Shown here: one piece after another, positions 10,735-57,000 of the stretch
How the letters are laid out: every line of letters begins with the position of its first letter
How positions within the stretch are numbered: position 1 is the stretch's first letter
Assembly (NCBI GenBank): GCA_002946415.1
Contig: NJPS01000053.1
Location: 55,200 to 119,199 of the forward strand
DNA from: Rutstroemia sp. NJR-2017a BVV2
Taxonomy: Eukaryota > Ascomycota > Leotiomycetes > Helotiales > Rutstroemiaceae
Length of the DNA stretch: 64,000 nt
Direction: 5' to 3'
Translations under genes and position numbers: made by a program
Notes under the pieces: generated by a model
Seen by the model: only the letters and a program-made list of their open reading frames with translations
Database searches by the model: none
What the model was told of the DNA's origin: nothing

Positions 10735-11052
10735 TATTACGGAAGTAGGTAGTGAAGTTAGTGAAATTAGGTATAAGCAGATCAGATTAACTAGTTAAAC
10801 TAGTCAATAATCTAATCTAAATAATTATACTTTCTAAGTTATAGAAGTTACAAACTATAACTTAAAAATACTAACTTGATAGATTATTCTAAGATAAAAA
10901 TCTTCTCTTCTTTTCTAAGTTCGGAGAGTATAGTAATTATTGATCAGATATAAATATTTGCGAAAAGATTATTAGATAGAAAATAATCAACTAATTCTAC
11001 TATCTTAATTTCTTTCTTTATAATTTAGCTATAAGGTATTTGTAATATAATA
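10735..11052 (+). repeat. Copia-B 5' LTR (318 bp)
   Basis: Starts TATTACGGAAGTAGG, from TGTTACGGAAG before mutation, and ends ATAATA. It aligns along its length with 28,976-29,293, with mostly C/T and G/A differences. Confidence 0.92.
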
Positions 11053-11066
11053 GTTATAAGTCTGGT
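11053..11066 (+). promoter_or_regulatory. Copia-B primer-binding site, half-tRNA-iMet type
   Basis: GTTATAAGTCTGGT starts directly after the LTR. It matches the family A site GTTATAAGCCCGGT apart from transitions. Both resemble the complement of the anticodon stem-loop of initiator tRNA-Met (GGTTATGAGCCC type), the internal priming site used by Drosophila copia. Confidence 0.7.
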
Positions 11067-11189
11067 TTAGTGAAACTCTTTTACTATATATAATTGCTAC
11101 TACTTATAAATATCTTTACTTACTTTATTTACTTCTTATATAATTATTGTATCAAACCAATCCTGTTACTCTATCTATTTAAGATTATT

Positions 11190-14100
11190 ATATCCAAAGA
11201 TATCGGTAAAGCTAAGCTAGTTACTAAATCAGATTAACTAATATAGTATCTCCAACTTCGGCGAATTTGCCAAATTAATAATATTTGGAATTTAGTTAAT
11301 CCTATCAAATTCGAGAAATAGATCGATTAGCTTACTACTACTCTATTTACTATACTAACCTTGGTTCAACTTATATCTGGAGAAGATTATAAATACTATA
11401 TTTAGTATAAGTAAATACTTTCAGAATATATTGAAGTTATTAAAAATACTATTATAACTAATACCGAAGATAGTACTTCCAATACTCTAGAATCGAATAG
11501 AAAAGTTAACTAGCTAGTATCATTAATACAATTATAACTAACTATTCTTAATAATATCAAAGATCTTTATTTGATCCTCAAAAAGGAATATTGTAAGTTT
11601 AAAGCCAATTACAATATTTATTATCAAGTATTTAAAGAAGTATATTAATAGATTATTAATATAGTGGATAATATATATATATTGGATATTTCTCTTGAAA
11701 GAGATAACTCTTCTGAGATTACTTTTAAAGAGATAATTATTTCTTTCAAAGAATATTTTGCTTTAATAAATATAGCTATTCTAAACAAAGTATAGTTTGA
11801 ATATCTTGATATACTTAATCAAGTAAAATATAATATAATCGATCCCAACCAATAGTATCTAAAGTAAAATAGAGTATTTATATAAATCTCTATCTATAAA
11901 ATCTCTAATATCGAAGAAATCCTTAATATTATAGCTTTCCTCAAAGTAGTATATAAAAAGATAACTCTTCTATAAACTAAGAATCAGTTTAATAAAGTAA
12001 TTACAAATACTTAACTAAGAAAACCTATTATAATCTTGAAATAATATAGTTTTATTTTCGGAAACTTAGTTACTATCTATATAAAGAATCCAAAAAATAA
12101 AATAATCTTTATATTTATCAATTCGGCAAATAATTCGAATAATAGTTTCTAAAAGGATAATTATATCAATAATAATCTAGATAATAAGAACAAAGGATCA
12201 AATTCAAGAAGATAATTTTATAGATATCAAAAAATCAGTAACCCTACTTAGGTTAAATATCTATATCGACTTTATATATAGTAGATAGAAGAACCAGAAA
12301 ATAGTAAATATAGATAAATATCTAAAGATTGCAAATATCTTCTTTTAGTAATCCAGAGAAAAACCTTTATAAGAAAAAATAATATTCTAACTAAGTAGAA
12401 TATCAAAACGATTCTAGAATATCTTAATTTTCTATACTGGAATTCTTTATATATTATACTTGCTAGCAAAGGATATAAGATCAATAATTAAATCAATAAT
12501 ACAATCTTATTACTATTTCCTAGAAAGATTATTAATATAATTATTAATCTACAATTAGTTAAGAAGACTGATAGTATAGGAATCTATATTATATCAATTA
12601 TTACTAACTACTACTATCTAATAGATAGTATCTTTTTAGATAACTATAGAACTATATACTTAGTTAATAATATCAATCTTCTAGATAATAACAAATATAA
12701 TTGAATGATCTCAAATAATATTATAAAATATAGAACCTCTTCCCTCGATATCATAAACTATAGAATATATATAATCAAAAATTGTCTTTATAGTATATAT
12801 AGATCCAATACTAAGAATCTAGTTTTTATAAATATAACTTTGGTACCTAGTTTTTATATCAATATCGTTTCAGAAACTCGACTTCGTAATTCGGATTTAT
12901 AAGTTTATAAACTAGATAGTATTTTAAGAATCGGAATACTAAAGTCAAGTATTATTATAGCTAACTTAGAATATAAATTCAATCTAATATTCCTTGAATT
13001 CAAGAAGCCTTCTATCTCCTACTTAACTATCTTATCAAATATACTAATAAGTAACTCTATAATAGTATATCTAATATTAAGTTATAAAATCCACTATTTA
13101 TATTATAAATCAAAGAACCCTTTACTACCAAAAGAAGATAATATAAACCGATAATATAACTAAGTAAGTTATCTAGAATAAAAAGTATTCGAAAAACTTA
13201 TATATTTTGCAAGAGATATTCGAATCAAAGATTTGAAATATATTGATTATAAGAATTATATATAAGTATATACTAAGTAGATCATCAAATATAATTCAAG
13301 TAACTGATCTTCTCTGTAACTATTTTATAAAATCATATAGGATCTATTCGACTTCTTAAACTTATATAATAGAATATTATAATTGTTATTGATTAAAGAA
13401 GTATTTAGTAGAAAACTCTTCGGATTCCCACTATATCAGAAATTGTACTTTGAGGTATTCAGTATAATAATTATATTCGAGGTCTAGATATAATACTAAT
13501 ATAGATTAGCAATCTATATAATTAAGTAGAACAATAATACTTCTGTTATTTCAATTATAGATATAACTCTATATTAGAGATAGACTATAAAGCAAAATAT
13601 CGAAATTGAATTATCCTTATTTAATATCTATAAATCGAATAGAGTTATAGAACAAACCAATTAGGAAATAATTATAAAAGCGATCAAAATATATATAAAT
13701 ATAAACTTACTAGAGAACCTTTAGATCGAAATTGTTCAGACTACAATTTATCTTTATAATATTAATCTATTCTAAGAACGAGATTTCAAAACCTTAAATG
13801 AAATACTTGAATTATAGTTCCAATTATATTTTCGCTGGTATAACTCTATATTAGTTATCTAGATTACTTCAGATCTTCGACCTAATTAGAATAGAATTTA
13901 CTATTATAGATACCAAGTTTACTTCTTAGATAAAGATAGAGAAGTAAATAAAAAGAGAAAATAGTATAAATTAAATTCTAGAATATATATTGGTTATCTA
14001 GTAGGTTATATCCTGGAAATATCAATTTATAGAATATAGATATTATAGCTCAAATAGATCATTATTATGAGAAATATTATATTCAACAAGGAACTAATAT

Positions 14101-14786
14101 ATTTCTACGAAAACAAGTCTAGTTTGATACTACTAGTTGATCAAACTATAGAATTTATTTATAAGCTTAATGAAAAAGTAGATCTTCAACCAAATAGATC
14201 TATCTTAGAGAATAATAATATAGTTCACCAAATAGATATTATAGTAGAAATCTTATAACTCTCTATTTCATTAGGAGATCAAAATACTATATCAAGCTAT
14301 TCTTCGATCTCGGAGATAAGTATTACTAGTGAAGATAATAATAAAAGATTAAATAGTAGTTCTAAACTTAATAGTATACCAGACTATCTAGATAATAATA
14401 AAGAACTATAAATAAGAAAATCAAACCTATCTATATTAGGTAAAAGATCAAATATAGAGGAATTATATCTATTTACTTAAGGTAAAGGATTACTAAAGAT
14501 TAGTCTATATCTTCTTATTATAGATAAAGAAATTAAAAGCCAAACTTATATATAACTATCAAGAAAAGGCCTATTTCCTTTTATTATAGGAAAAGGAATT
14601 AAAAGTTATATACTTACTTAATAAAGATTCAATGATTTGAAGAACGATAATATAATAGATATTGTAATATATATAATACTAATACTTAGAAATAGGAATA
14701 GTTATAAATACCAAGATAAAGATAATATCGATTTGAATGAATCTAATACTACTATAGATTTTGAGCTTACTAATACTATAGATATA
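11190..14786 (+). pseudogene. Copia-B gag-pol, 5' part (gag, protease, integrase)
   Basis: The frame begins at an ATA (probably a former ATG) at 11,190 and reads a gag-like N-terminus resembling family A (IGKAKLV against IGNVKLT). A basic region with zinc-knuckle-like spacing lies near 12,230. A protease-like segment follows (LIDSIFLDNYRTIYLVNN near 12,615). The integrase core lies about 13,320-13,830, including SNRVIEQTNQEIIIKAIKI, the Copia NG..ER motif region. The integrase C-terminal strand IYRIQILQLKQIIIMRNIIF is near 14,030. The frame runs into the A2 insertion at 14,787 and continues at 24,602. Stops are all of the Gln/Trp-derived kind. Confidence 0.85.
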
Positions 14787-15120
14787 TGTCACAGAAACTG
14801 ATCAGCTGATATAGGCTATGAAGGTCACTGACCTGGATTAGAGTTTCTCTACAACTGCAGGTTAACTTGGTAAGCAACCTGCAGGCCTGGACTTTGGGGA
14901 TCAATAATCTCCTTATATAAACCTTCGGTATTAGTAACCCCAGAATATTATTACTTAGATATTACTTCGTACTTTAGACCTCTCTTGCGAAGATCATCAA
15001 CTTATAAAAGAGGTTGAGAAGATCGGCTTGAGAAGGTTAGACAATTATCACTTATTTATACGATTACCTAATATTATTCTCACCCAATTCCTTTTTGCCT
15101 AGCTATCACGATACGTGATA
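14787..15120 (+). repeat. Copia-A2 5' LTR (334 bp)
   Basis: Starts TGTCACAGAAACTG and ends ATACGTGATA, giving short inverted ends TRTCAC/GTGATA. It contains a TATA-like ccttatataaacc segment about 130 bases in, a plausible promoter for the element. Confidence 0.95.
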
Positions 15121-15134
15121 GTTATAAGCCCGGT
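15121..15134 (+). promoter_or_regulatory. Copia-A2 primer-binding site, half-tRNA-iMet type
   Basis: GTTATAAGCCCGGT follows the LTR with no spacer. It fits the complement of the initiator tRNA-Met anticodon arm if one G has become A. This indicates priming from an internal tRNA site rather than the tRNA 3' end. Confidence 0.75.
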
Positions 15135-15263
15135 ATAACACACAATTCTTCTGCACAACTATCCGTTAGCTTATTTGATAGCTACCCTTATTCTGTTATT
15201 ACTCTACCTGTTATATTACTCTTACCATTATCGTTGACCTTCGCAAGCATATCGAACCTCAAC

Positions 15264-18200
15264 ATGATCGGCAACGTCAAGCTCACCACCCGTGCCCAGT
15301 AGCCTGCATAGTACTTGGAACTCAAGCAACAGTATCTAGTTAAGGATATCTAGCATCTTGTCAATCCTAACCTTATTTCTGATTTCGTATATCTCAAAGC
15401 AATCGGCACAGATCAGAATAATACTCTCGACTAGCTTACTACTTCTATACTATCTCCACCCACCTTCGACAAACTCAGAGCACAGCACGATACTGAACTC
15501 CGTAAGAAATACTATATCGACCTCGACAACTTCAAATCTACAACAGCACCTAATACTCAGATAACTGGTACCGAGGGCATAGATAGAAATGATACCCCTA
15601 GTTCTTCCAATCCGAGTAGTCAGCAACCTTCACAAGCAGCTTCACCTACTCAGGAACCAAAGTATCCAGCACCATCAATCATTGATAATATCAAGGATAT
15701 CTTCAAGCTTCTCGAAAGAGAATACAGAGATCGCAAAGCTAAATAGGATATAATACATAAGGTATATAAAGAGGTCTATATATAGATCTTATCAATAATC
15801 GATATAGCTTACCTTATTAATATCTCTCAACAAGTATCAATAACCAACAAAATCATCTTATATAGCACAATTCTCTTTCTTAAACAATATCTTACACCTA
15901 CCAATTTATCTATTATACTCGGTCTTCAATACAAATATAGAGATATACTTCAACAAGTACAATAAGGTTATACTATACCTTTAGCTTAGTTTAAGAAATG
16001 GACTATCATCTATACCAAGGCTAAAAGTTATAGGTTTCTCGAGACTCAGAGAATCCTTGTAGTTATCACCTTCCTCGAAGCAATCAAGGAAAAGATCTAT
16101 CCTATTTGGGCTAAAAACCAGTTAATTAAGGTGGAAACAAACCAGCAACTTGGCTTACTATATAAGACTCTTAATAACTATACTAATATTATTAGTAGAC
16201 TTATTAAAATAAGATCTCGCGATACCAAAAACAAAGATATATATATAACCAGTATATCTACAGATAATAATATATCTACAAGAGTAGTATTTAACAGTTA
16301 GCAACCGCTGGAACCATCTACCGGAGGTAGCTAAGGCCAACAAAACAAGAACAACAAAACTAAACCACTTTGTCCTTATCATCCTGCTACTTGGTTCGAG
16401 GAAACTAAAAATCGATATAACTGGAAGCCAGAAAACTGTATCAACCTGAATAATCTACTATAAGATAAATCTCTGAAGAACATCTTTACAGATATCGAGA
16501 TCAAACAGATAAAAGAGCAGATCAATAATCCAAAATAGAAGGATCTACAAAAATTACTTACTGATAAAGGGATCGAATTACCAAATGAGAAAACTCCTAT
16601 AAGTACTCAATCACCTTTCCCTAACAAAGTTATTAATACAATCATTTCACCTACTCTTATATAGATCAGTGATCCTAATATATTCTCCACCTCGGTTATT
16701 ACTGAAAAGTATTATCTAGCGAACTCAATTCTTCTCGATAATTGTAATATAATATACTTAGTCAACAATATTTCACTCCTTGACAACAATAAAATCACAA
16801 GTACTAATAATAATAATATTATCGAATATAGTACTTTATCGCTCCAAATCATTGGATATAGTATCTATATAATTAAGAAAATTCTCAATAAAGTAAATAG
16901 TCCAAAAACTAAAGACCTTATATTAACTGATATAGCAGTTATTCCTGGATTTCATATAAATATTATCTCTGAATCGCGTTTATAGGGATCAGATTTGTAG
17001 ATATACGGTTTTGATAGTATATTAAGATATAGTCCAATAGAGAAGAGTACAATCATTGTTACTCTCCCTTATATATACAACCTAATCTTCTTGGAATTCA
17101 AGAAAGTTTCTTTTTATCCGACCATTATATATCCTATCTCTATAAGTCATATTATAATAATATATCCAACTATAAGCTATAAGATCAGAAAATACTATAG
17201 CCGATCCCGAGATCCTATACCAGTATAGTCGGATTTAGCTCAAATATAATATGACTATACGGGATATCTTGATAAGGTTGTTTTGGAAAAACTGGTAGAT
17301 AGAGTAAGAGGAGTAAGAATTAAGGGGGTCCCTCGAATTAATTATGAAGACTGCTCTCTGGTATATATCAAGCAGGTTATTAACCATCAGTCTGGGGATC
17401 GGTAATCTGGATAACCCTTTTATAAGGTTGTATAGGATCTTTTCGACTTTCCGAGAGTATTTAATAATTATATATAGCTCTTGGTGATCAAGGAGGTATA
17501 TAATAGGAAAATCTTTGGATTTCTATTGATCCAGAAAACTTATCTAGAAGTGTTCTATACTATTACCATCTTTGAGATATAGGTAAAACATCAATACAAC
17601 TTATCTATATATATTATTAAGCAAGATAATAACACTTCAGTAATTGGAATCAAAGACTATACCAGCTTTGAGACCTGGACTAAATAAGAAGGGATTGAGA
17701 TAGAGCTATTACTAGCAAATACCTATTAATCAAACGGTATTACAGAAAGAACAGAGTAGGAGATTATTACCAAATCAATTAAGATATAGACCCAAGCGAA
17801 CTTCCCTCCTGATCTTTGGCCTGAGATTGTAGCTATAGCAATATACCTCTACAATATTAGCCTATTAGAAGCGAGAGACTTCAGGACCCCAAATAAGGTT
17901 CTCGATTTATAGTTCTAGTAATACTTTAGATAGTATAATCCTGCACTAATTACTAAAATCTGTACAGACCTATAACCGGATTAAAGTGGAATATACCGAT
18001 TCGGATACTATACTTACCCTCTTGATAAAGACAAGGAGTTGGATACAAACAAAAAATCATATAAAGTAAATCCTCGAACTTATTTAGGATATCTAATAGA
18101 TTATATACCCGGTATATTGATCTACAGAATCTGGGTTCCTATACTCAAACAGATTATCATTACTCGAAATATTAGATTCAACAAAAACATCCTCTATTCT

Positions 18201-20894
18201 AAAGAAGCTAAGCCCAAAGAAACTACTTCTAAGGAATACTTAAAAGAAATATCTCGGTTATTAGATACTTATATAGTCGAAAACCCTGATAGATCAATTC
18301 TCGAGAGTAATAATATAACTGATTTTACAGTTACCGCTAGGAAGGTTACTTTGCAATCTACCGACCGGCAGAAAGCCTACAAGCAGAACTCGGAGGTGAA
18401 TAATAATCCTAACGAAAGTAATAGCAAAAGTCCTCCTAGTAGTCCATAACCTGAAGATAACAGCCCACATCTCAAAGGAAGTAATAAAAGTCTAGATAAG
18501 TACTAACCTGAAGATCAATCTTTAGATCAGATAGTTAATAATATCATAACTCAATCCAATACCAATAAAAAGTTAACTAATCTTTATAATACCCTATTGG
18601 CAGTTAGAATAGATAACTGGATACCAGGTGATTCTATATCAATCGATAAGTCAGAAATTAGGATATTAACTGAGCTCGGGGGTAAGATAGACTTCAAATA
18701 TCATGATACTATCGATATTCTATACAGAGAATATGAAGATAGTTCAGATAATAAATCCTCCTAGCTAGTATATCTTATAATTGAAGATACCCTGTATAAT
18801 CCTATATATACTACACACAATAGTGATAGTTCATATAAACAGAAAGAGATTGAGATAGCTCAATCCAACAATCCTCCACTATTGGACGAAAAAGGTCAAC
18901 TACTCAAGAGATTAAGATTCGCTATTGAAATCCTTATAAGAAGATCGGATATACCTAAGAAGGCTCTTCTAGAGATCGAACTATTTGCTTACAGAGCAGA
19001 TAGATTTATCCCTAAGTTCGAAATATATAGGCAAAGATGCTACTATCAGAGATACAATAAGAAGATCGTTAATATATTTATTAGGATAATTATTGCTCAA
19101 CTATCTAAGAGAAGCATTAAGAAGCTTAACGAGTTTCATAATATATTCTGGCCTGATCAGCCGAATATAGATAGAGACGAAGAGAGCAGAAATTTTGTAA
19201 TACTCCATAATATAGTGGCTGCTACGATCACAAACAAACAAAAGAAACCTGTATCGGATATAACATAATTACCCAAAATCCATATTAGCCAAGCCCAAAA
19301 GCTTCCGAAGCGCTATTATAACCTTAACAACTATCTTCTGGAAGTCGCTTTCAAAGCAGACTATAACCAGAAGATCGGTAATCTGAAGGTATAAAATATA
19401 TAGAGAGAGATACCGACCAATATAGCTAATACTAAGCTGATCCCTCTCGAATAGGTATTTGTCTATAAAACAGACCAGGATAGGTATATAATATATTGTA
19501 GATCGCATCTTGTAGTCAGGGATGACCTTCAGGCCAAGAATATAATTGAATCAATCTATACAGTGATACTTACTTCCTATTCTTTTCGAATTATTATAGC
19601 TATTATTGCTAAGCTCGATCTAGAGACCAAGTAATATAATATAGTAAATGCTTTTGTGAATATACTAAGAGATCCAAGTAGTGAACCAGTTATATATTAT
19701 CTTCCTGATAGGTACAAGATAGAAGACAAGATTGCAATTATCGACTATATACTCTATAGTCTCCGAGATTCCCCAGCGATCTGGTTCAAAGATTTTACCA
19801 ATATACTCAGAGGACTTGGAATGAAACCATACTCTAACGAGCCCTATATCCTTATCAGCAATAACTATAAGGTTTTAGTACTGTTTTTTATCGACGATAT
19901 TCAGATTATTTATAATAAGTCCTATATTGCTGAAGCCGAAAAGATCATTGATAGAATCCGATCTATATACGAACTGTATAAGATAGGTAACATAGAATAG
20001 TTCTTAGATATATATATTATCAGAGATCGTATCTAAAAGAAGCTATAGCTTATATATAATACTTATATTAAGAAAATCGCTCGGAAATTTGACCTTACTA
20101 GTAGCAAAGTAGCAAGTACCCCACTTCCTATTATGGAGTTCAAGAAAAATGATAGTATAGCGGTCAAGTCTAAGGTTAAGGAATACCAGGAGAAGGTTGG
20201 ATCGATTTTATATACTATAATAACCTTATATACGGATATCGCTTTCGCTGCCTCTTAGCTAAATCACTTCCTAACCAATCCCTCGGAGGAGTATATTATA
20301 GCTACTAACCATTATATCTGGTATCTATAGGATACAAAGTATCTTGCTATCGAGTATAGTACAGATTCATCAGCACAACTACTTATTACTTCAGATACTT
20401 CCTTTATAGATAACAATGAAACGAGATAATCATCCCAAGGATATATTATATCGTTGTACAGTAGACTAATTATCTGGAAAGCATCCAAACAAAATATAGT
20501 CACTACTTCTACTACTGAGGCAGAGCTTCTAAGTATAGAATATATAGCGAAAGAAACAATAGCAACAAAAAGACTACTTAAAGAACTCGAACTAGTTATC
20601 CTAGAACCTATAACGATCTACTATGATAATATCCAGATAATCTAGCTGATAGTTAGCAAGAACAAGCGAATTTCTACCAAACTATATTATATTGATATCC
20701 AGAATATATAGTTTCGATAGGAGTATACAAAAGGATCATTTGATATCATATATCTCCCTATATAGGATATATCTATAGATGGACTTACTAAGAACCTTAT
20801 ATACCAGCAATTCGAATACTTCCGCACTTACCTAAACCTGTAGGATATAAGGAATAAGATAGAAAAAATCACCAAAGTAGTCAAAACCTTATAA
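15264..20894 (+). pseudogene. Copia-A2 gag-pol relic, nearly continuous
   Basis: One frame runs from the ATG at 15,264 (MIGNVKLTTRAQ...) to about 20,894, broken by TAA/TAG codons at Gln/Trp positions, with long open stretches at 18,039-18,449, 18,882-19,268, 19,656-20,000 and 20,454-20,645. In order: gag to about 16,600, ending in an unusual Cys/His segment CPYHPATWFEETKNR...C (about 16,370-16,440); protease and pre-integrase about 16,700-17,300; integrase core about 17,380-17,830 with SNGITERTE; integrase tail with IYRIWVPILKQIIITRN; reverse transcriptase about 19,260-20,200 with the catalytic box FIDDIQIIY near 19,890; RNase H about 20,220-20,890 including SRLIIWKASKQNIVTTSTTE. The RT catalytic Asp pair is intact, but the stops make the copy inactive unless read through. 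Confidence 0.93.
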
Positions 20895-21477
20895 AATATA
20901 TTTTCATTTATTATATTCTATTATTAATACTAACAAGATCTCTGAGATTATCAATACTATCCTACTAACTATACCACCAATATTGTTTTTGGTATAAGGA
21001 TAAGCAGAATATAGAAGTGATACTTAGAAAGATAACCCAATACGAGCTGACTATAACAACCGACTAGCCGAATTCACTTAAGACTAATAAGTATTACTAA
21101 GATTCGCAGCCAGGATAGAGAGGTAAATAGCTGATACTGATAGAGATACCCTTAAGATAAGTGACCAATACTAAGCCAACCTCCAGAATAAACCTTTAGA
21201 TAACCTCGAGACCGGCACTTAATACTATAGTTATCAGTCAGATAGTAATCTGACCGGCATAAGATAAGCGATCTTTATAGCTATAACTATATAGATATAT
21301 TGATAACAATATATAATTCGCTAAGTATATCGGCACTTTTATATAGATAACTAATCCCTACAAATACCTTTTTGGTAGTACTAAGATTAGTTATTTATCC
21401 TATTTATTTACTTTACTTTTATAATACTTTCATATACTTTTTCATAATCATTTCACGAAAACAATAATAATTTAAGC
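20895..21477 (+). other. Copia-A2 spacer between pol and the antisense gene
   Basis: No convincing coding frame was recognised on either strand. It is conserved in Copia-A1 (about 31,124-31,707), so it belongs to the element. It probably holds the convergent 3' ends of pol and the antisense gene. Confidence 0.55.
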
Positions 21478-23860
21478 TTAATATATCTATTTCAACTACT
21501 TAGCAAAACCGAAGCTATCTACGAAAACTATTTACAAAAGGTCTTCGTACTATTCTTGGTTAATCTCCCTATACTTCAATCTATTATCCAAACAGCGTAT
21601 TACTAAATAGAAAGCCTTATTATAATCTTTGCCCTGATTCTGGAATTGCTGAACAAGCTGAGTCAAAGTCTCAGTAGCACTACCAGAAGATATATAAGAA
21701 CTAGTTAATCTATATAAGGATTGGATAGCAGAATGGTAAGATAAGCCAATATCCGATCGACGAGAAGTAGAAGGAGAACCAGAAGGAAGAGAAAAGAAGG
21801 AAATAGTAGGCTTCTTACAGAATAAAGAACAAGCCGAAAAAGACTTTTGAAGTTACTCACGTTCGGAGCAGCGGAGAGGAGTACCCAAGGTTCCAGGAGC
21901 AGGCGAATATATATGGCCACCACGAGAAGCAGGACTGGGGCGGTCGTAAGAGGGAGTTTTGAGCCAGAGATAACTCAATGAGGGAGATGCCTTACTATAA
22001 GTAAGATGGTAAGAGCTTTGAGAACAAATCTTGATAGGATCTCTGATAATAAAGATATCATCATCATCCTTGTCATCATTATTATAAACCTCACTACTAT
22101 CCAACTCGGCTATAGTCGTACCCAAATCAGCTACAATCTGTTTCAACTAATAAACTGGCAAGTCCTTGATATATTCAGACAGACCAATCATTTCAAGCTT
22201 AGTCTTCCAAAATTTGCAAGTAGCACCAAACTCCTGTTTAAGTATTAGCGACAATATATTTGAAAAGGATAGATTAATCTATAGTTGAACTACTCTCAAT
22301 CCTGTTCTCAGACTTAGTAGTAAGGAAAGTGGTAGCTTCGAGAAGTTGATCAGGTCTTGGAATCGGTCTATACTTCTTTGTAGTACAACCCCAGTAATGT
22401 TTTCCTTTGCCACTATTCTTTTTGTCACAACAAAAACCCTTCCCAGTATATTTCGAAGCAGCAAGAATACAAGCAATATACAGAATCGTACAATACTTTC
22501 TACGGTTATTGATATCACTATACTCCCACCAACGAACAACTGAGCCAGCAGATTCCGAACCACCCGCTATAGCCTTCACTTTGCATTCAGTGACCGGTAG
22601 AGTATTATCCTCAAGCTCAAACTTTTGAGGGGACAAAGCAGAAGCTTATTATAGAGCTATTGATTGGAATGGCAACTAGTAATTCTTATAACGCAAGGTC
22701 GGAGAATTGAACTGAGCTCCAGGATAAGGAACCGGAGATATATTGTAACCACCAAAGCCAGAGTAGCTACCTTGACCGAAGTAAGGATCTTGTAGAGAAC
22801 TCACTATACCAAGTATCTGACTCTTACTATATCCAGGTGGAAAACCTATAAGTTGTTGATGATACTATTGGCCAAAGTTCTTATAACAGTCACTCGACTA
22901 CAGAAAACTTGATGGCAACCTTATAGAAGGTAATACAGGTATATTACAAGGAGAACCTTATATCGCAATAGATAGTATACTTAGCAAATACCCTTATTAT
23001 TGATTAACCGATATGAAATTCGAAAATACTACCTGCGGAAAGGCAGCTGTAGAGGGTACTAACCACGGCAAATTGCTTGCAAGGTTGGGCTCGATACTAT
23101 TTCGTAGAGATTGCAACTAAAAACAGGTGCAAAAGTATAGTTAGTATCTGGAGGATGAATAATAAGATCAAAGATAAAATTGAAAAGAAAACTTACCTTG
23201 CTCAGACTGGAAGTGATTATATCAATAGTGGTACAATTATCGATAGCAGAACCAGCTCCAAGCTGACCGGTAGGAGGAGATTCTTGACCGGTAGGAGCTT
23301 GGTATCCAGCACGGGAAGGTCGAGGCTTGGATTCTCGAGAAAGTGAAGGATTAACAGAAAGAATTATATCAATAATATATTCTTTACCACCTTGCTTACG
23401 AAATACACATTGAGCATGAAAATTCTCAAGGCGCTTTGCAGGAGGAGGCTTGGGAGAGTTTTGTGCAGAATACTCCCCAGAAGATTAGCGACTATACTTA
23501 CTAGACTGACTATCAGATATAGTGAAGACTTGAAAATGAATAGGTTAAACTATGGAAAATAGTAGATTTCAAGTGAAACAAGTAGAAAAGAAGCAGAATA
23601 TATTGGTTGTATTGTAGTTGTAGTAGTATACAAGTGAGAATCATATATACGATTATAAGGATTACTTTATACCTACTACTATAGAAACGAATCACTATAT
23701 ACTAGTATATATTCAGGCGACAATAAGGTACCAGTACTACGATTTACGATTTTAATCCTTATCGATTTATATTTACCAGATCGATTGTATATTTTTGGCC
23801 GAAATCGCAAAGTTTTTGATACTTTTTCCTAGTATCTTCTCTACGAAAATCAGGTATCAT
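21478..23860 (-). pseudogene. Copia-A2 antisense accessory gene, spliced, function unknown
   Basis: A minus-strand gene facing gag-pol. A likely first exon is 23,860-23,777: ATG then 28 open codons (MIPDFRREDTRKKYQKLCDF...) up to donor GTAAAT at 23,776; its acceptor is unresolved. From about 23,550 a second coding segment runs to 23,197, Pro/Ser-rich (ESKPRPSRAGYQAPTGQE). A textbook intron follows at 23,196-23,117: donor GTAAGT, branch TACTAAC at 23,146-23,140, acceptor TTTTTAG. Downstream the same frame continues through a Gly/Tyr/Pro-rich segment (QDPYFGQGSYSGFGGYN) to a Cys-containing module, WWEYSD...YCTILYIACIL then FCCDKKNSGKGKHYWGC near 22,400, loosely like a GRF-type zinc finger. At about 22,270 the frame shifts by one, then reads a 97-codon open stretch with an Asp-rich run, and ends near 21,478 after a helical tail (TETLTQLVQQFQNQGKDYNK). 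Remaining stops are mostly Gln-type TAA/TAG. No family recognised. Confidence 0.7.
23117..23196 (-). other. Intron in the Copia-A2 antisense gene (80 nt)
   Basis: Donor GTAAGT, branch TACTAAC ending 20 nt before the acceptor, and acceptor CCTGTTTTTAG. Reading frame is preserved across it (phase 0). A perfect set of fungal splice signals on the minus strand shows the gene was transcribed and spliced in that direction, since an intron on the element's own RNA strand would not be read this way. Confidence 0.8.
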
Positions 23861-24252
23861 TTGCTGATATATAGGAATATACTGCTATTATTACTTGATA
23901 TCAAACAGATGCTATACTGGAAGGTGTGCTACTAGGTAACCTTGTTGGTGGAAGTCAAGAAAAGTTTGTAAGAAAAACAAATTCTATCTGATTACAAGGC
24001 AATAGTTAAGGAGAATACTGATCTTATAGGCAAATATCTGTAGGGCAGACATTAACAATATAAGCACCATAATATATATTCTTGTTAAAACTAATATACC
24101 TTATACAGAAATGATACCCTGATCTGCTTCCCTATGCTTAGTCTAAAACAATTAGATGAATTCAACCTTTATTTCGTTTGTCATATATATACTAGGATAT
24201 TCCTAGTATAGCTTCACAAATATTTCCTTTATTTTACAGTTCAATATTTGAA

Positions 24253-24262
24253 CTGGGGGGTG
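24253..24262 (+). promoter_or_regulatory. Copia-A2 polypurine tract
   Basis: An aactggggggtg segment lies immediately before the 3' LTR. This is the usual plus-strand priming site for reverse transcription, and the run of G is striking in so AT-rich a region. Confidence 0.65.
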
Positions 24263-24596
24263 TATCACAGAAACTGATTAGCTGATATGGGCTGTGAAGG
24301 TCACTGACCTGGATTAGAGTTTCTCTACGACTGCAGGTTAACTTGGTAAGCAACTTGCAGGCCTGGACTTTGGGGATCAATAATCTCCTTATATAAACCT
24401 TCGGTATTAGTAACCCCAGAACATTATTACTTAGATATTACTTTATACTTTAGACCTCTCTTGCGAAGATCATCAACTTATAAAAGAGGTTGAGAAGATC
24501 GGCTTGAGAAGATCAGACAATTATCACTTATTTATACAATTACCTAATATTATTCTCACCCAATTCCTTTTTGCCTAGCTATCACGATACATGATA
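24263..24596 (+). repeat. Copia-A2 3' LTR (334 bp)
   Basis: Gapless match to 14,787-15,120 with about 14 differences, all C/T or A/G transitions, on both strands. It ends ATACATGATA directly before the ATATA target duplication. Confidence 0.95.
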
Positions 24597-24601
24597 ATAT
24601 A

Positions 24602-26827
24602 TTCTATAGGATATATAAAAGTAGTTCAGATAATAAATCTACTAATCTAAATCAAACGAGATATTTATTACTAGTATAAGTATCTATATAATCTGATTAT
24701 AATAATAACAATATAGAAAATAGACTACTGTTTCTAAAGTATATTTATATTTATAAGGTTACTTAGTTACAAACTAAAGAAAGGATTACTTCTATAAAGG
24801 TCAATATACCTTCAAACCCAATCAAGAGAATTCTAAACCCTTCTTTTGATTATTTATTAGAGTAAATACCAAAACAATCTCGGTTAGAGATTGTTATACT
24901 CTACCAAAAAATCATTCTAGACCGAGATCCTATTTAGCTTACTAAGACCTAAATATCTAGCTAATAGAAAAGTAGACGAATTCAATATCTCAAATCTAGA
25001 TATAAAGAATAATATATCTATACTTTCATCAGTATCTTAATTACTTAGTATTTAGGAAATCAAGATATTAATCTGTTTAATAATTTTTATTCTATTTTAT
25101 AATCTAATTAGTTTAGAATAAATAAGAATAAAGAACAAAACCGATATATAACTCTATATAATATTATTATAGTAGCTATTATCCAAAAACCCAAGATTGT
25201 TAATTTATGATCTCGACTACTATCTCGAGTTTATATAAGCAATATCGCCAAATTACTTAAGTATCACTATCAATTATAGAATTATCTTTTTGAGTATTGG
25301 TTTAAGAAGAACTATAATTAGGAGATCAAAATATTTATATTATATAATACTTGGTGGGAAGTCCTACTCGACTTAATAACAATCAAATCTATTCTACTAA
25401 AGTAGATATTTAATTATAAAATAAATTAGGAGAGTTATATAATATAATACCGATCCTAACTAGTAGTCAAAAACGATTTTCAAGTAAAGAATATAATTGA
25501 ATCTATCTATATAATTACCTTTATATTATATTTCTTTAGAATCATTATAATAATTATAGCCAAACTTGATCTCGAGAGCAAATAGTTTGATATAATCAAT
25601 ATATTTGTAAATATACTATATAATCCAAGTAGTAAACCAATATATTATAGATTACTAGATAGATACTGAATTCTAAAAGTATATATTATTATTGATTGTA
25701 TTCTTTATAGATTATAGAACTTATCTACTATTTGGTTTAAGGACTTTACTATTATACTGATATCTCTAGAAACAATTCCTTATAAAGAAGAACTATATAT
25801 CTATCTATATTATAATAGAAAGATTCTTATTTTCTTCTTTATTAATAACTTCTAAGTACTCTACTACAAAAGAAATAAGTAAGTTATTAAAATACTTATT
25901 AAGAAGATCAAAACAATATATAAGTTTCGAGAACTTGGAGATATAATTTAGTTTCTAAGTATATAGATTCTCAAAGACTGATAATAAAAGAAACTATAGT
26001 TAGTTTATAATACTTATATTGAGAAGATTATATATAAGTTCAACCAAATTGATAAGTAACTAATCTCAATACTATTTCTAACTATTAAGCTTAGAAAGAA
26101 TACCGAAATAGCTTATCTATCCAAAATCAAGGAATTTCAGAAGAAAGTTGATTCAATTCTATATATAGCAATTATTCTATAAGCAGATATAATATTTGTA
26201 GTATTATAGTTTAGTTATTACCTAACTAACCCAAGCTAAGTCTATATTAAAGCTACTGATTATTGTATCTGTTATCTATAGAGAATATAGTTTTTAGTAA
26301 TCGAATATAGTATAGACTATATAACTCAACTCTTAGTTATATCAGATATATTATTTACAGATAATCAAATAACTAGATATTTATCCTAAAAATATATTAT
26401 AAACTTATTTAGTAGATTAATCTTATAGAAAGCTATTTAGTAAGATACTATTATTATATCTATAATCGAAATAGAATTACTTAGTATAGAATATACTACT
26501 AAAGAGATTATAGTAATAATGAAATTATTTAAAGAAATCAACTTATAAATCAAGGACCTTATTACAATCTATTATAATAATATATAAGCAATCTAGTTGG
26601 TTATAAGGATAAATAAGCAAATCTTAATAAAGCTCCAATATATTGATATCCAGAATATATAGTTGAGATAGGAGTATAAAAAGAAAAACTTTGATATTGT
26701 TTATTTCTCTATCAATAATATATTAGTAGATAGATTAATAAAGAACTTTACTAAACAAAACTTCGAATATTTCAAAGTATTACTTAATCTATAAGATATC
26801 TAGAGCAAGATCGAAAAGGTCAAATAA
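24602..26827 (+). pseudogene. Copia-B pol, 3' part (reverse transcriptase and RNase H)
   Basis: Continues the frame broken at 14,786. The first bases (ttctataggatatata) align with A2 at about 18,717. Reverse transcriptase spans about 25,440-26,150; its catalytic box is degraded to FFINNFQVLYY, with both Asp codons changed to Asn by G-to-A. RNase H lies about 26,200-26,800, with IEIELLSIEY matching the Copia TEAEL..E motif. The frame ends KIEKVK at 26,827. Clearly dead. Confidence 0.85.
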
Positions 26828-27689
26828 TCTATTTATTATTAAGATATAAAGATAATAAAGGATATCTATAATATTTTATTAAATTATATACTAGGGTATC
26901 AGTTCCAACTATTTAAAACAAAACTAGCTACTAACTAAGCAAAAAACCTACAAAATAATTAGTATTTACAAACAAATAAAGCAAACTTATTTATTATTTC
27001 TGATAATATCTCTTGAAGATAAGTGATTATTATATAACTTCTTCTTCAATTCTCAATATTCATCTTACTAACCTTATACTCCTCTACCTCAGTATCCTCA
27101 ATAATATTATCTTTACTATTATAAAGATACTCTATTATCAAATAGAGAGTAATATAATACTTTTTCTCAACCTAATCAATAAGTTAGCTAACTTAGTAGA
27201 TTATAAATACAAACCAATCTTACTTTTTTATTTCTATCTAATTGATAAATCAAATATCTATAAGCAATCTTCTGAAGTACTAGATACAAAGGCTTACAAG
27301 AATAAGTTTTATATTAGAAATAATAATAACTCTAAGTCTTAGCTATATTAGTATTGCAAAACTCCTACCTAGAGCAAAATTTACTTATAATAGATCAGAT
27401 ATAATACCAATAAGGATATTCAAACTTATTATCTTTGATACAAATAGGTAAATAAGATAAATAATAAAATTGTTTTTTAGTACAAATAGTAGTTATAGTT
27501 TAAGATAACTAGCAAATAGAAGAAATCTTAGAATAAGAAGGAAACTTAGAGTAGATAATAGAAAGATAACAATAAGAAGTAGATAATAATAAATCGTTAC
27601 TGGATTTAGAATCTATATTACCTTTATCAGTATACTTACTAGAACTTACTATCGAAGTTTAATTATCTCTAAGCTCGGAGATAGAATTA

Positions 27690-27790
27690 TTCTCTATAAT
27701 AGATACAAACTTATTTTCTATAATAGATACAAATCTATCTTCTATAATAGATATAGATCTATCTTCTATAACAGATATAGAACTATCTTT
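27690..27790 (-). repeat. 24-bp tandem repeat, four copies, inside the Copia-B antisense gene
   Basis: Four consecutive 24-bp units of the form tctataatagatacaaact. Each is a whole number of codons and encodes variants of SIIEDRFV on the minus strand. Units differ only by a few, mostly transition, changes. Confidence 0.8.
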
Positions 27791-28030
27791 AATAGATTAC
27801 TTATTATTTATAACTCTATTAATAGATTGTATAATAATATAACTAATATAACCAAAACTGATTTATCTCTTTTAGAGATCAGTAAATTCAAGATTTTTAT
27901 TTTAAAGAAGTATTCTATTCTCTCAATCCTAAAGAATATCAATATCCAAAAACTTATCTACTTTATCTTCAATAGGAAGATTACTTTATATAGAAATATT
28001 ACTTATAAATAATATCTTATAGTTATTCTA

Positions 28031-28108
28031 CTAAAGTGGAAAAATTAGTATATAAAGATAAAGATAAGAAAAGTGAAAATATAAGAATAATCCAGAAAAC
28101 CTATTTAC
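28031..28108 (-). other. Intron in the Copia-B antisense gene (78 nt)
   Basis: Donor GTAAAT, branch TACTAAT (28,050-28,044) and acceptor CCACTTTAG. Both degraded bases are the expected RIP changes from GTAAGT and TACTAAC. The length is a multiple of three, so frame alone does not prove it; the splice signals do. Confidence 0.6.
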
Positions 28109-28975
28109 CAAATAATTATTAAGATATATCTTTTCTATTTCACCTTCAAAATCGTAAGAAGGACTAGTAATTACTTTACCTTCAGAATCGATTATAACTA
28201 TTCTAGAATTATTTTTCAAATAATTAGTAGTCAATTAGTTTCCAAACTACTAGATCAAATCTATATAAATAATTAGGAAAACTTATTTCTAGAAGACTAC
28301 TAGCCAAAGATAAAGAACTATTATTTCTATTATAAATAAGATACTTTAATTATTGATATTGAAAGTACCTATTCTATTACTTTCGCTACTTACGATAATA
28401 CTTCACTAGATTATATATAAGTATAATTGAAATGAAGTATTGATTATAAAAAAAGATAGTAACTAGAAGCAGAATATAGTGGTGGTGGTAGTGGAAAATG
28501 GTATATAAAAGAGAAGAAAAGGTTTAGGAAAAGAATAAGAAGAGAAAAGTATTTAAACTTACCAAGTACAGAGCTAGTGAATATATCGTCGCCCAAAAAT
28601 CATAACAAATAATAACTATAATAGATATAGTATCGATAGTCACTATCGCAATTATAATTTGATCAACAAATATTTATCTAAAAGATCTATCGAAAACAAA
28701 CCAAATATTTATTATTAAAGCTATTTACTCTTTATATAATATAACAAATACTCTTAAATAAAGATAACTAGAGATTGAGGTTTTCATTTCTATAATATAT
28801 TTACTATTAAATCGGGATAGCAGTAATATATATAGTAGTATATATTTCTGTATATAAGGCAAACAACCAAGTATTAGTATATAGAACTAGATCTGATTTA
28901 TTACAACTAAATACCAGCTGGATATATTATATAGTTTGCAAAGTAAAATAGATTGAATACTTAATCTAGAGGATA

Positions 28976-29293
28976 TATTATAGAAGTAGATAGTAAAGCT
29001 AGTGAAACCAAGTATAAGTAGATCAAATTAACTAGTCGAGCTAGCTAATAATCTGATCTAAATAATTATACTTTCCGAGTTACAGAAGCTATAAGCTATA
29101 ACTTAGAAATACTAATTTAATAAATTATTTCAAAATAAAAGTCTTCTCTTCTTCTCCAAGTTCGGAGAGTATAGTAATTATTGATTAGATATAAATACTT
29201 GCGAAAAGATTATTAGATAGAAAATAATTAACTGATTCTATTATTTCAATTTCTCTCTTTACAATTTGGCTATAAGGTATTTATAATATAACA
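28976..29293 (+). repeat. Copia-B 3' LTR (318 bp)
   Basis: Starts TATTATAGAAGTAG and ends ATAACA, preceded by a mutated polypurine tract (ctagaggata, 28,966-28,975). Same length as the 5' LTR. Confidence 0.92.
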
Positions 29294-29298
29294 ATTAT

Positions 29299-48547: not shown

Positions 48548-50367
48548 ATGAATTCCGCTCCAGACAGAGAAGAGGACCTCCTTCCGATTCATATCGCAGT
48601 ATCTAATAGAGACACCACCGAGCTGAAAGCTCTACTCAGCCAATCTCACGACTCAATCAATACGCGGGATCCATGGAATTACACACCTCTTCAAATTGCT
48701 GTTGAAGCGAATGATCTACCTGCTGTGCATTTATTGATATCTTCCGGCGCAGATTCAGATCTTGAAGTGCCGAATCACTATTCAGACCTGGTGGAGGGGA
48801 CAAATTCCCTGAGTTCAGCGGCCCAGAGTGGTCATCTCGAGGTTCTGAGATTTTTGGTGGAGAATTCGGGTCGTCTGACAACGAAATCGCTTTACATGGC
48901 AGCCGAGGCCGGGAGATTGGACTGTGTTGCTTTCATACTCTCGTATGTTGATAAAGCCGAGAAAACAGTGTTTGGAGACGGAGTTTCGAAAAATGAAGCT
49001 GTCGGAGAAGCGTTGCGAATGGCAGCTGCGGGGTGGCGGGATGAAATTGTCGAGGTCATCCTTCACAATCGAGAAATCGAGACACGACTCATGGGAACTG
49101 CACTTTTGTGGTTAATTCACGATGAAGAGGAATTCGATGACTATCATGTCATCAATCCAGTTCCTCGCAAAACACCAGAGGGCAAAAAGAAGCGTATCAA
49201 AATCGCCAAGCTGTTGCTCGATGCCGGAGCTGATGTCAATGCCAGAGGAGAGATGCACGGAATTGAAGGCATGACTCCACTTCACAAGACCTCACGAATG
49301 GGGTCACGAATAAGAGAAATTTTTGATATGTTACTAGAGAAGAAACCGAACGTCAACGCAGAGGATGAAGACGAACAGACGCCACTGTTTCAGGCGATTC
49401 TAGCAGACGATGTCTACTTTGCAGAGATGCTCATTGATAACGGCGCGAGAGTCGAACAAATTGATAAGCAAGGGCACACAGTTCTGCATATATCAACGGA
49501 TAACCTGACACCTGCTTGCAAGCACATCGTCAAGTGCCTTTTGGACCATGGGGCCGATATTTCTGCTGTGACTAAACAGGGAGAAAGTCCACTTCACCTC
49601 GCGGCATATCAGGGCAATGCTGCCGCAGTAAGATCCCCATCTATTTGTCACAACCAAGTATTCCATAAAATTCACCTCCCAACTTGTTTCAAGTTTCACT
49701 CGCCCATGTCGTATTTTCTGACGAACATTTAACTGACTATCAATTCATCTAGATGGAGGTTCTTCTTTCCCACTCGGATTCTAAGTTGTTGGGAGTTAGA
49801 TCGGCAACTGGTTTCACTGCTCTTCACTCTGCTGCCCACGGGCCGGCTCAGATAAACATCGATGTGGTGGCTCTCCTGCTTGCCCAAGGAATGGATATCA
49901 ACGAATGTACCGATAGCGGCCTCACACTTCTCCATCTTGCGGCCACCAGCTTCTCCCCGGACAAAATTGATTTCGTCGAATTATTGTTAGAGAAAGGAGC
50001 CGATGTAAATGGATGGACGATTCCAGTAGTTCTAGGAGACTCCACACCTCAGGCCCACGAAAGATCATTGCCTACAAAACAGGCAAATGGCGTGATAGAT
50101 ACACCTTTACATCTTGCTCTGGATCGCGAACCAGTGGATTTCGGTCTCGTGTCTGTTCTCTTGGATGGAGGAGCAAATATCGAAGCTAGAGACAGCATAG
50201 GCAGGACTGCCCTTCTGAGATGCGTGGTAGGGTATGAAGTGGCTCTGCCGAGGCAGGAGGTTGCACTGGAACTCATTAAGAGAGGAGCCAACATTGAAGC
50301 TGTGGATGATCTCGGAAGAAAAATCGATGTTGACGCTTGGAGCGTCATGCCAGGTTGGGGTCAGTAA
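48548..50367 (+). CDS. Ankyrin-repeat protein, 564 aa, one intron
   Basis: The coding sequence is exon 1 (48,548-49,627), a 125-nt intron, then exon 2 (49,753-50,367). Ankyrin repeats, helical modules that bind partner proteins, fill almost the whole length. Clear units include NYTPLQIAVEANDLPAVHLL, the segment from GMTPLHKTSR to ADVNA, DEQTPLFQAILADD, QGHTVLHIST, GESPLHLAAYQGNAAA (joined across the intron), TGFTALHSAAHG, SGLTLLHLAA and DTPLHLALD. Roughly twelve repeats are visible, with no enzymatic domain, signal peptide or membrane segment. The start ATG lies at the first repeat and no in-frame upstream ATG is better supported. Base composition is balanced and there are no RIP-type stops, so the gene looks intact. 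It converges on the LysM gene, with 76 bases between stop codons. The molecular partner cannot be told from the sequence. Confidence 0.9.
49628..49752 (+). other. Intron of the ankyrin gene (125 nt)
   Basis: Donor GTAAGA after GCCGCA, branch-like ttaactgac, acceptor ATCTAG before ATGGAG. Removing it joins two ankyrin halves in phase 0; without it the repeat series would end in unrelated residues and a stop. Confidence 0.85.
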
Positions 50368-50443: not shown

Positions 50444-51554
50444 CTACACTCCAATACAAACATAGTATCCCAACCAAAGACTTCCACAAGTACTTCCAAT
50501 ACCCGGATTATATTTGTAGAAATTCGCCAGCGTGATCCCCGCATTCGTAGCAATAACCCCGCACTCATCACCCGAAGCCACCAAGTGGAACTTCTTGCAA
50601 CTGGTAGTCATATCCGTCTGAATAGGCGTTGGTGTCGCGATCCCATTCCCAGCTGCTGTTGTCGTCGGCTTCTGCGTAGAAGTAGGAGAAACACTTGTCG
50701 TTCCCCCAACAACATTAACACAAACATATGTATCCAACCAAAGCGATCCACAGCTGCTTCCCACAGCCGGATTCCAACGATAGAAGTTCGGGAGCGAAAT
50801 TCCCTTTGATGAAGCGATAGTGTCACATTCATCGCCTGATTTCACCAAGTAGAAAGTATTGCAATTCGTTGCCATTCCCGTCTGTATTGGGGTGGGGGTT
50901 GAGATTCCGTTCCCAGCAGCTGTTGTAGTTGCTGGTGCGCTGCTGGTCTTGGTGATCGTAGATGTGACAAAACCAATTGCTCCTACGCAAACATATGTGT
51001 CGAGCCATAGTCCTGTACAGGTGCTGCCCACCGCGGGGTTCCATGCGTAGAATTGTGCCAGTGAGAGACCGAAATTCGAGAGTATTCCTGCACAATCGTC
51101 TCCTGATCTCGTGATGTAGAACGAGTTACAGCTGGTGGTCATGCCAGATTGAATGGGAGAAGGCGTCGTGACACCATTGCCGGCAGATGTCGTGCTTGTA
51201 GGTTTCGCTGTCGAAGTAGTGGTGCCGGCTGGTGGGTTGCCATAGTTTCTCTCAATGCAGTAAGAATTCCCAACAGTCAACTTGCATGATGTTCCGACAG
51301 AGGGATTCTAGAGGAAATATTAGGTTTACTCTGGTAGTATTAGATAATGGAGGACGAACCCATGAATTGAAATCGGCCAATGAAATACTCCAAGTTGTTG
51401 CAAAATTTGCGTAGGTGCTACTCGAAGTTGCAACGTCCCAGTAGGAACAATCTTGGATAGTGTCGGAGGCAGCTGTAGTTGGGGGATTCTCTAAATAAGC
51501 CTGGGTAAAAGGTAGAAAAGTAGCAGCTGCTACAAAAAGAGTATTTGTCCTCAT
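50444..51554 (-). CDS. Secreted protein with four LysM domains, 352 aa, one intron
   Basis: Exon 1 is 51,554-51,360 (65 codons) and exon 2 is 51,307-50,444. A signal peptide is evident (MRTNTLFVAAATFLPFTQA). Four LysM-like modules follow: a divergent first one split by the intron (YWDVATSSSTYANF...FNSW|NPSVGTSC...GNSYC), then three close copies with pattern C..F....GD.C......G.....F...NP..G..C..LWL..YVC. The copies are separated by Thr/Ser/Pro-rich linkers containing GNG(V/I)(S/A/T)TPTPIQ. LysM domains bind chitin and related N-acetylglucosamine polymers outside the cell. In plant-associated fungi such proteins can shield hyphae from chitinases or hide chitin fragments from plant receptors, while others act on the fungal wall. 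No catalytic domain is attached. The gene appears intact and unmutated. Whether it is an effector cannot be decided here. Confidence 0.92.
51308..51359 (-). other. Intron of the LysM gene (52 nt)
   Basis: Donor GTTCGT after TTCAATTCATGG, branch-like tctaatac, acceptor CCTCTAG. Splicing in phase 0 recreates the LysM core F-N-S-W-N-P-S-V-G; without it the frame ends within exon 1. Confidence 0.85.
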
Positions 51555-55300: not shown

Positions 55301-56437
55301 GAAGATAACAATTCTATTATCAGCTATCAGGAGAAGTTCCGATATATCAGTTATATATAGTATTGTTTTTTGGGGTTTCTATCTACCTATCAAGGGATAG
55401 GTATAAGTAGGAGAGCTAAGCAAAAGCGATAGGTATATAAGGAGGAGATATAGGATATATAGTAGATTTGGTAGAAGCGATTATATGATATCGATATCTA
55501 TACTATATTGGAGAAGATATTAGGAAGTATAGTATAGTTTCGGAGATTGTAAAAGTCTATATTATATACTATTATGAAGTACCAGAGTTCTATTGTAGCT
55601 ATAATAGGTACTAGGGTAGAGAAGATATTATTGTTCTAGTTACCAGCTAAGAGTATAAGTTCCGGGATAACTATCGTTATTAGCCTATTGGTATCATTAT
55701 AGGACTATATAATAGAGCAATATCAGTAAGTAGAGATTTCATATATAAAATAGGATTTCCGCTAGTACTATTCCTCTAGCTAGATAATTATCGTTATATC
55801 GGAGGTTGTAGTTAGTAAGATATTTGGAATATTTTTGGACTAGTTATAAGGGTTATATTTATTAGAGTAGTTTGTATTTAACAAGTATTATATAGTATTA
55901 GATAGTATTACCGAGTTCTGGCCTAAGATATAGTAAGTAGGGGAATTAATAGAATAGAAAATATAGATAGTATATTTGATAGCTATATTACTACCCTATA
56001 CCGAGTCCGAGTTTATGAAGATTATATAGATCCCGGCCGATAAGGTATATATATTCTGATCCCTTACCAGCTATCCCAATATTGTATATACTATAGTGGA
56101 GTATAAGGAGAAGAAAGAGGATATATATAGATAAGAGGAGATTGTAGCTATATATCGGTTAATGGAGCAGAAGTTGGAAGAATATACTATATCTATAAAG
56201 ATTATTATATATAGTAATAGTATTGTTACTATATAGGAAGTCAATTGTATATTGGGATACTATATATATTATTGCGATATAGGGGAAGCTGTTATCAAAG
56301 ATAAGATCTGGAAGGTATAGGAGAGTATCGATAGATAGATAGTTATAGCTACTAATATATTTGGATTAGATATCGACTAGCCGGATATATAGGTAGTAGT
56401 GTATATAGGGCCGATTTACTAGATACAGAATTATAGT
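52346..56437 (+). pseudogene. OrsD/DUF3505-type zinc-finger plus RecQ-like telomere-linked helicase, degraded and truncated
   Basis: The N-terminus, open from 52,346, reads FKVVVCTICQYTVLPSQIARY and later PPIPEL, matching the fungal OrsD/DUF3505 zinc-finger domain (VC..CQYAV.P..I..H...). A second Cys/His region near 52,630 (C...AIQKHYREEY) and QFFPKRSGSAFFEVQ at about 52,750 also fit. A Gly/Asn/Arg repeat and an acidic run follow at 53,380-53,690. The helicase core starts near 55,590 with AIIGTRVEKILLFQLPA, a damaged Walker A (GT.VGKS-like), then TIVISLLVSL. The former DECH box region lies near 55,880 (YYIVLDSITEFWPK). ATNIFGLDIDQPDI then VVYIGPIYQIQNY (56,340-56,430) corresponds to helicase motifs V-VI. 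The coding match stops before QESGRAGR. Such RecQ helicases are commonly subtelomeric in ascomycetes. Many Gln/Trp/Arg stops make it non-functional. Confidence 0.82.
53386..53660 (+). repeat. Purine-rich low-complexity repeat within the helicase relic
   Basis: Runs of ggaagcagagca-like 12 to 15-base units, almost pure purine on the plus strand. They encode repeated GNRAG/GSRVG peptides followed by Glu/Gly/Ser-rich sequence. Confidence 0.75.
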
Positions 56438-56438
56438 C

Positions 56439-57000
56439 TAGTAAGTAAAAAGCAGATTGAGATTTCGGGTAGGTTCATTTAAAATATAATACGATAGTAC
56501 TAAATCTCGTTATTTTTGTTAACTAACTATTAAACTATTATCTAACTATTATCTAATTATCTTCTAATCGCTCTTAATTAATTGATTAATTGTATATAGC
56601 TCTATATCAATTTGCGACTGAGTTATATCAACCTTACCCAAAAAGGTAAACTATTTCATTATATAACTCTCCCCACCTTAAATCAGATTCTAGTAAGTAA
56701 AAAGCAGGTTGAGATTTCGGGCGGGTTCATTTAAAATATAATATGATAGTACTAAATCTTGTTATTTTTGTTAACTAACTATCAAACTATTATCTAACTA
56801 TTATCTAATTATCTTCTAATTGCTTTTAATTAATTAATTAATTATATATAGCTCTATACCAATTTGCGACCGAGTTATATCAACCTTACTTAAAAAAGTA
56901 AACTATTTCATTATATAACTCCTTCTACCTCAAATCAGATTTAGTAAGCAAAATATAAGCTATATCTCAAAAAGGTAAAGTATTTTATTATATAATTACT
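56439..57000 (+). repeat. 251/252-bp tandem duplication with a partial third unit
   Basis: Units start tagtaagtaaaaagcag at 56,439 and 56,691, and a partial, deleted third starts at 56,942. The first two match over their whole length with mainly transition differences. Each contains gatttcggg(t/c)(a/g)ggttcattt and a ttaccyaaaaaggtaaacta stem. It cuts the helicase at motif VI. The nature of the unit is unknown; tandem solo LTRs or a subtelomeric satellite are possible. Confidence 0.8.

Follow-up and report, generated by a model that had tools for sequence, protein, structure and literature searches.

A candidate intron-containing antisense gene in a degraded Ty1/Copia retrotransposon family of Rutstroemia

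Introduction

The gene brtn of Botrytis (Sclerotiniaceae), a genus of the same order as Rutstroemia, was reportedly described by Zhao et al. in 2011. It is an additional antisense gene of the Boty-like Ty3/Gypsy element of Botrytis cinerea (PMC8365987, PMC7264820, PMC4227169), and a transcript similar to BRTN is reported from Monilinia (PMC5987419). Antisense genes located between pol and the 3' LTR are known from Gypsy elements, both in plants and in the case of brtn, and from HTLV (PMC7264820, PMC8365987, PMC10186651). Other predicted additional ORFs of Botrytis LTR elements are shown in a figure of PMC8365987, and a Copia case may already be drawn among them. The available text of PMC11963269, PMC5408684 and PMC12477816 describes no Copia element with a spliced antisense gene, and searches of the open-access literature found none in a fungal Copia.

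Here we describe a candidate gene of this kind in a 64-kb window (the whole stretch of DNA analysed) from Rutstroemia sp. NJR-2017a BVV2, carried by a repeat family termed family A. Like brtn, it would be an extra antisense gene in a fungal LTR element (the two were compared by description), but the carrier is Ty1/Copia rather than Ty3/Gypsy. It shares with the plant aORF-3R genes (Grande gene23, RIRE2, Retand and PvRetro13) the position between pol and the 3' LTR, the opposite strand, the retention in most copies and the lack of known homologues; the examples named there are plant elements, and introns in the antisense ORF are not described in the available text (PMC7264820). The closest working analogy is provided by the antisense genes of deltaretroviruses, among them hbz of HTLV-1, which have a spliced form and lie with the 3' LTR upstream; hbz is expressed from that LTR in both spliced and unspliced forms (PMC10186651). 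Relative to these known antisense genes, a spliced antisense gene in a fungal Copia element looks like a new form of a known arrangement.

Results and Discussion

Self-comparison and junction analysis resolved positions 6435–34861 into a three-layer nest of LTR elements, in which a young family-A element sits inside a family-B element that itself sits inside an old family-A copy:

6435–34861: old family-A copy, outermost layer (self-comparison, junctions)
10735–29298: family-B LTR element inside the old family-A copy; LTRs 86% identical
14787–24596, plus strand: young family-A element, 9,810 bp, inside family B (LTR pair, junctions, SH3_retrovirus and RVT_2)
14787–15120, plus strand: 5' LTR of the young element (self-comparison, junctions)
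15435–20855, plus strand: gag-pol in one frame, degraded (47 stops in 1807 codons); the gag start at 15435 is provisional
24263–24596, plus strand: 3' LTR of the young element (self-comparison, junctions)

Decay is far milder in the young family-A copy (GC about 0.33) than in the rest of the nest (0.17–0.24). Its LTRs are 96.4% identical over 332 nt in self-comparison, and ATATA flanks the element on both sides (14782–14786 and 24597–24601) within AT-rich DNA, which gives it the LTR pair and 5-bp target duplication of an LTR retrotransposon. Pfam places an SH3_retrovirus match within 17985–18449 and RVT_2, above cut-off, at 19425–20126 (C49:74624–75325); SH3_retrovirus ahead of RVT_2 identifies family A as Ty1/Copia, in agreement with the Copia-type carrier named in a preliminary description of this DNA. 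Pol ends near 20855 and is followed by about 3.4 kb of extra DNA up to the 3' LTR. That description had given the antisense region as 21478–24262, correctly between pol and the 3' LTR but too short: because pol stops near 20855, the extra region is 20856–24262. A nested DNA transposon was considered for 20700–24300, where the inverted repeats are short and AT-rich and no sign of one was seen. Elsewhere in the window, a host ankyrin gene (48548–49732) matches a Rutstroemia sp. NJR-2017a BBW protein at 99% identity, with 92% of the query covered; the gene adjoins a minus-strand ORF (50444–51307) with repeated Cys-containing units, which presumably resemble LysM domains. Two tandem 252-nt units with 91% identity lie at 56429–56932.

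On the minus strand, the region between pol and the 3' LTR contains three open segments, in the order 23520–23197, 23116–22301 and 22233–21551 and in frames 0, 1 and 0, respectively. These were assembled into the following model, listed in the direction of the antisense strand:

23777–23860, minus strand: candidate 5' exon of the preliminary description (ATG at 23860, donor at 23776)
23197–23520, minus strand: predicted exon 1, frame 0, Ser/Pro-rich, 1 stop in 108 codons; provisional start
23117–23196, minus strand: intron 1, 80 nt, GC 27.5%; GT in 7 of 14 copies, AG in 9 of 14
22301–23116, minus strand: predicted exon 2, frame 1, 8 stops in 272 codons
about 22234–22300, minus strand: putative intron 2, 67 nt, GC 26.9%; donor lost in the window copy
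21551–22233, minus strand: predicted exon 3, frame 0, with an acidic DDKDDDD stretch and a Ser-rich tail; 3 stops in 228 codons

Predicted exon 2 consists of a Pro/Gly/Tyr-rich part followed by a Cys-containing CC...HYWGC stretch; its 5' part (22660–23116) is weakly supported. The candidate 5' exon spans just 84 nt (GC 33%), over which a frame on the plus strand contains no stop either. The long minus-strand protein described previously thus corresponds to real long frames between pol and the 3' LTR, but in the window copy these are interrupted by 12 stops in the 608 codons of the three-exon model, a density similar to that of gag-pol (47 in 1807).

Searching the 43.4-Mb assembly (79 contigs) with 22300–23500 returned at least 15 matching places, including that of the window, and all 15 were compared. 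Two places on C43 cover complementary parts of the query and are possibly one interrupted copy. RIP-like decay is seen in 15 of 15: transitions relative to the window outnumber transversions by 1308 to 38 in the nearest copy and by 250 to 9 in the shortest, and GC falls from 34% (window) to 13% across the ten loci measured whole, a combination that is the mark of RIP. DNA of exon 3 lies at the matching side of pol in 12 of the 13 places that bear a family-A pol (two C46 pieces were counted as one, and eight family-B rows of 22 were left out), which bears out that the antisense region belongs to other family copies as well. At the remaining place, C46:29469, family-A pol is present and no antisense match was found. 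The C11 copy lacks about 290 nt (22157–22446), spanning parts of exons 3 and 2. In its position, its orientation and its presence in most family copies, the antisense ORF therefore agrees with the definition of aORF-3R.

The openness of the frames was assessed by simulation and by extrapolation across copies. With best frames taken from both strands, the three segments contain 11 stops, against Markov means of 30.3 (order 1) and 23.2 (order 2); none of 3000 simulated sequences in either model reached 11 or fewer, while the best frames of the real plus strand over the same segments contain 18. The copies were also used to regress stop density against GC, and the fit was evaluated at GC 0.46, a value for undamaged DNA that is our own choice. 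The predicted frame of exon 1 then has −0.2% stops (bootstrap −2.0 to 1.0) and that of exon 3 has 0.8% (−0.2 to 2.6), close to the −0.2 to 0.3% for gag-pol (−0.2% when ended at 20855), whereas the remaining minus-strand frames of these two exons gave 2.5 to 11.5%. The plus-strand +1 frame is itself fairly open, with 1.1% in exon 1 and 2.1% in exon 3. Exon 2 gave 2.7% (1.5 to 5.0), and frame 0 is lower there (1.9%). This composite value hides a difference between its parts: the predicted frame is the best one in the 3' part (1.5%), but is not clearly open in the 5' part (3.5% versus 1.7% in a competing frame).

The longest stretch free of stops common to all copies is 249 codons in the exon 3 frame, compared with 182 in the gag-pol frame; common stops are a weak test, as gag-pol itself has 43. 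In the regression, common-stop, codon-score and selection analyses gag-pol was run to 21200 or beyond, past the end of pol, which dilutes its signal; the stop counts were redone with 20855. Base composition follows the predicted structure, with GC of 39–43% in the exons, 27% in both introns and 26–31% in the adjoining parts of the window copy, and the contrast between exons and introns is repeated in two further copies. GC-rich DNA also occurs outside the exons, with 37% in the LTR and 37% at 20970–21270, between pol and exon 3. In the latter stretch, minus frame 1 extrapolates to 0.6% stops, the lowest of the six frames; the stretch could be an additional antisense exon or a second, small gene. 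Of the small indels in the exons, two are 3 nt long and three, all from two of the most decayed copies, are 1 nt long. Intron 1 has a single 7-nt insertion at its start, none of the roughly ten distinct flanking events has a length divisible by three, and gag-pol has one indel of 21 nt. A codon score trained on gag-pol ranks plus frame 0 above the antisense frame for exons 1 and 3, and is not decisive.

RIP transitions are uninformative on selection, so transversions were used. Among copies, gag-pol shows 22 synonymous changes out of 61 (0.154 expected, p 0.0001), with 30 of 59 at third positions, versus 11 of 66 in the antisense exons (0.172 expected, p 0.60), where third positions account for 21 of 64. 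Restricted to the four least decayed copies other than that of the window, the test gave 11 of 35 for gag-pol (p 0.013) and 4 of 17 for the antisense exons (p 0.33). Purifying selection on the antisense protein, the check suggested in the preliminary description, is thus not seen as a synonymous excess in a test of low power, because old copies contribute neutral changes and the two regions are not equally covered. In plant aORF-3R genes, by contrast, conservation similar to that of gag-pol is reported (PMC7264820). The proposed spliced antisense gene of the family consequently stands on its open frames, GC contrast, intron consensus and recurrence among copies, but not on selection.

Database searches gave no relatives. 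Among about 5.8 billion proteins, the 607-residue antisense protein has no homologue at E 0.001 (best 7992 candidates scored), and its residues 300–420 on their own have none at E 1; the collection includes Helotiales proteins, and the reach of the search is limited by the damaged state of the query and by genes lacking a prediction. Pfam scans of the stop-free antisense pieces found no relative and no bZIP; a sub-threshold match to Herpes_US9 (E 0.14) was taken as chance. A 123-aa piece matched nothing in the PDB up to E 10, and its predicted structure has a mean pLDDT of 42. The nucleic-acid-binding or regulatory role suggested previously from the composition of the protein accordingly finds no support of its own in Pfam, the PDB, the protein database or the predicted structure.

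Related elements were compared in the same way. The antisense exons have no tblastn match in the family-B copy of the window, and at other family-B loci the only matches are weak or inside a neighbouring family-A remnant. In family B, too, pol and the 3' LTR are separated, here by about 2.1 kb (26700–28960) unlike the family-A antisense exons; its open stretches are only short, and those on the plus strand include a repeated YNRYR-like unit. Three other Copia loci (L037, L038 and L039) have long open frames in DNA of normal GC with host-like genes nearby; their fetched DNA contains no counterpart of the antisense module, with weak matches only (E 4.3 and 7.3).

These results bear on a reading in which a host gene was taken up in reverse orientation as a passenger useless to the element and spread with it before RIP, its introns kept because the genomic RNA carried the complementary strand. 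We retain this chiefly because no sign of selection accompanies the open frames. It also accords with the composition of the exons, which are richer in GC than gag-pol (33%), are separated by AT-rich introns and come closer in GC to the host-gene stretch (40–48%). Against it, no undamaged host copy was found among the own-genome matches to the three exon pieces (12, 13 and 11 others, all with stops), the Helotiales proteins in the collection supplied no homologue, and the region recurs in 12 of 13 pol-bearing copies, which are at diverse stages of decay. On this evidence we regard capture as unlikely, if still a serious contender.

Intron 1 was found as previously described, with GTAAGT...TACTAAC...TTTTTAG at 23196–23117. 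Neither strand of the window contains another intron of strict consensus, and 0.024 are expected on the minus strand of the element (2000 order-2 Markov sequences). Its branch motif reads TACTAAC in 2 of 14 copies and occurs in C-to-T forms in the other 12. For the second intron, the case begins with the frame, which shifts from 1 to 0 near 22280, so that the model needs an intron near 22300–22234. An indel near this point was found in one aligned copy only (L010, 72% identical and degraded; at 22309). Of 10 copies, 5 begin putative intron 2 with GT and 6 end it with AG. We consider this intron likely, though weaker than intron 1; it would explain the frame change, for which a frameshift is the alternative.

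It could also be that the gene is real and the splicing model wrong, with intron 1 read through, the change at 22280 a frameshift, and separate ORFs in place of one protein. Frame 0 crosses intron 1 without a stop in all 14 covering copies, that of the window included; hence no stop forces splicing and an unspliced product is possible. A clear consensus donor of intron 2 is missing from the window copy and four others of the ten, and the 5' part of exon 2 is the weak part of the model. Simple read-through leaves the uniqueness of the strict intron and the AT-richness of both introns relative to the flanking exons unaccounted for, and we judge it improbable. Overall, the evidence gives good support to a fossil antisense gene of this Copia family with intron 1, and moderate support to intron 2 and a single antisense protein. 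The preliminary description is upheld in its Copia carrier, its minus-strand frames and its intron, but not in an open frame in the window copy.

A further reading holds that the antisense strand works as RNA, convergent transcription giving double-stranded RNA that controls the element, with the protein frame secondary or defunct. Regulation by sense–antisense dsRNA has been discussed for such elements (PMC7264820), and the selection data would fit, but a pure RNA function gives no reason for stops to be so few, for exons and introns to differ in GC, or for an intron to match the consensus, which makes this reading quite improbable. That there is no gene at all, and only a GC-richer noncoding stretch, could draw on the degradation of every copy and the weakness of exon 2, but it is disfavoured already and highly improbable in view of the simulations and of a unique consensus intron sitting at the edge of open frames.

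Our preferred reading, held tentatively and at a shade under even confidence, is that family A carried an intron-containing antisense accessory gene between pol and the 3' LTR that acted on the life cycle of the element. The 3' LTR lies upstream of the gene and may contain an antisense promoter, and the transcript would start in or near it and be spliced at least at intron 1. From what is established about splicing and reverse transcription, an intron that is antisense to the genomic RNA is not removed by retrotransposition. The earlier argument that such an intron outlasts copying is therefore sound, and the same property would have kept the intron of family A. The predicted product would comprise about 600 residues, with a Ser/Pro/Gly/Tyr-rich N-terminal half, a Cys-containing stretch and an acidic and Ser-rich tail. 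Perhaps together with the antisense RNA, it might adjust the element's own life cycle, a role modelled on HBZ in HTLV-1 and on the proposal for plant antisense accessory proteins.

The analogy has limits: HBZ is a retroviral bZIP protein, whereas no bZIP and no sequence relation was found in the stop-free pieces of family A, and antisense transcription from the 3' LTR is demonstrated for hbz but would be a deduction for family A (PMC10186651). A stronger version, in which a fungal Ty1/Copia element convergently with deltaretroviruses and plant Gypsy elements evolved a dedicated multi-intron antisense regulatory gene driven from its 3' LTR, the introns being preserved as antisense to the genomic RNA, is possible, and we hold it with more doubt than confidence.

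Conclusion

If the accessory gene is real, antisense accessory genes would extend beyond Gypsy elements and retroviruses and would have arisen in fungal Copia elements too. Introns would then be a lasting mark of antisense coding, and a search rule would follow: look for introns on the strand opposite gag-pol. If the gene was instead captured from the host, the locus would illustrate a way for intron-bearing host genes to travel in LTR elements.
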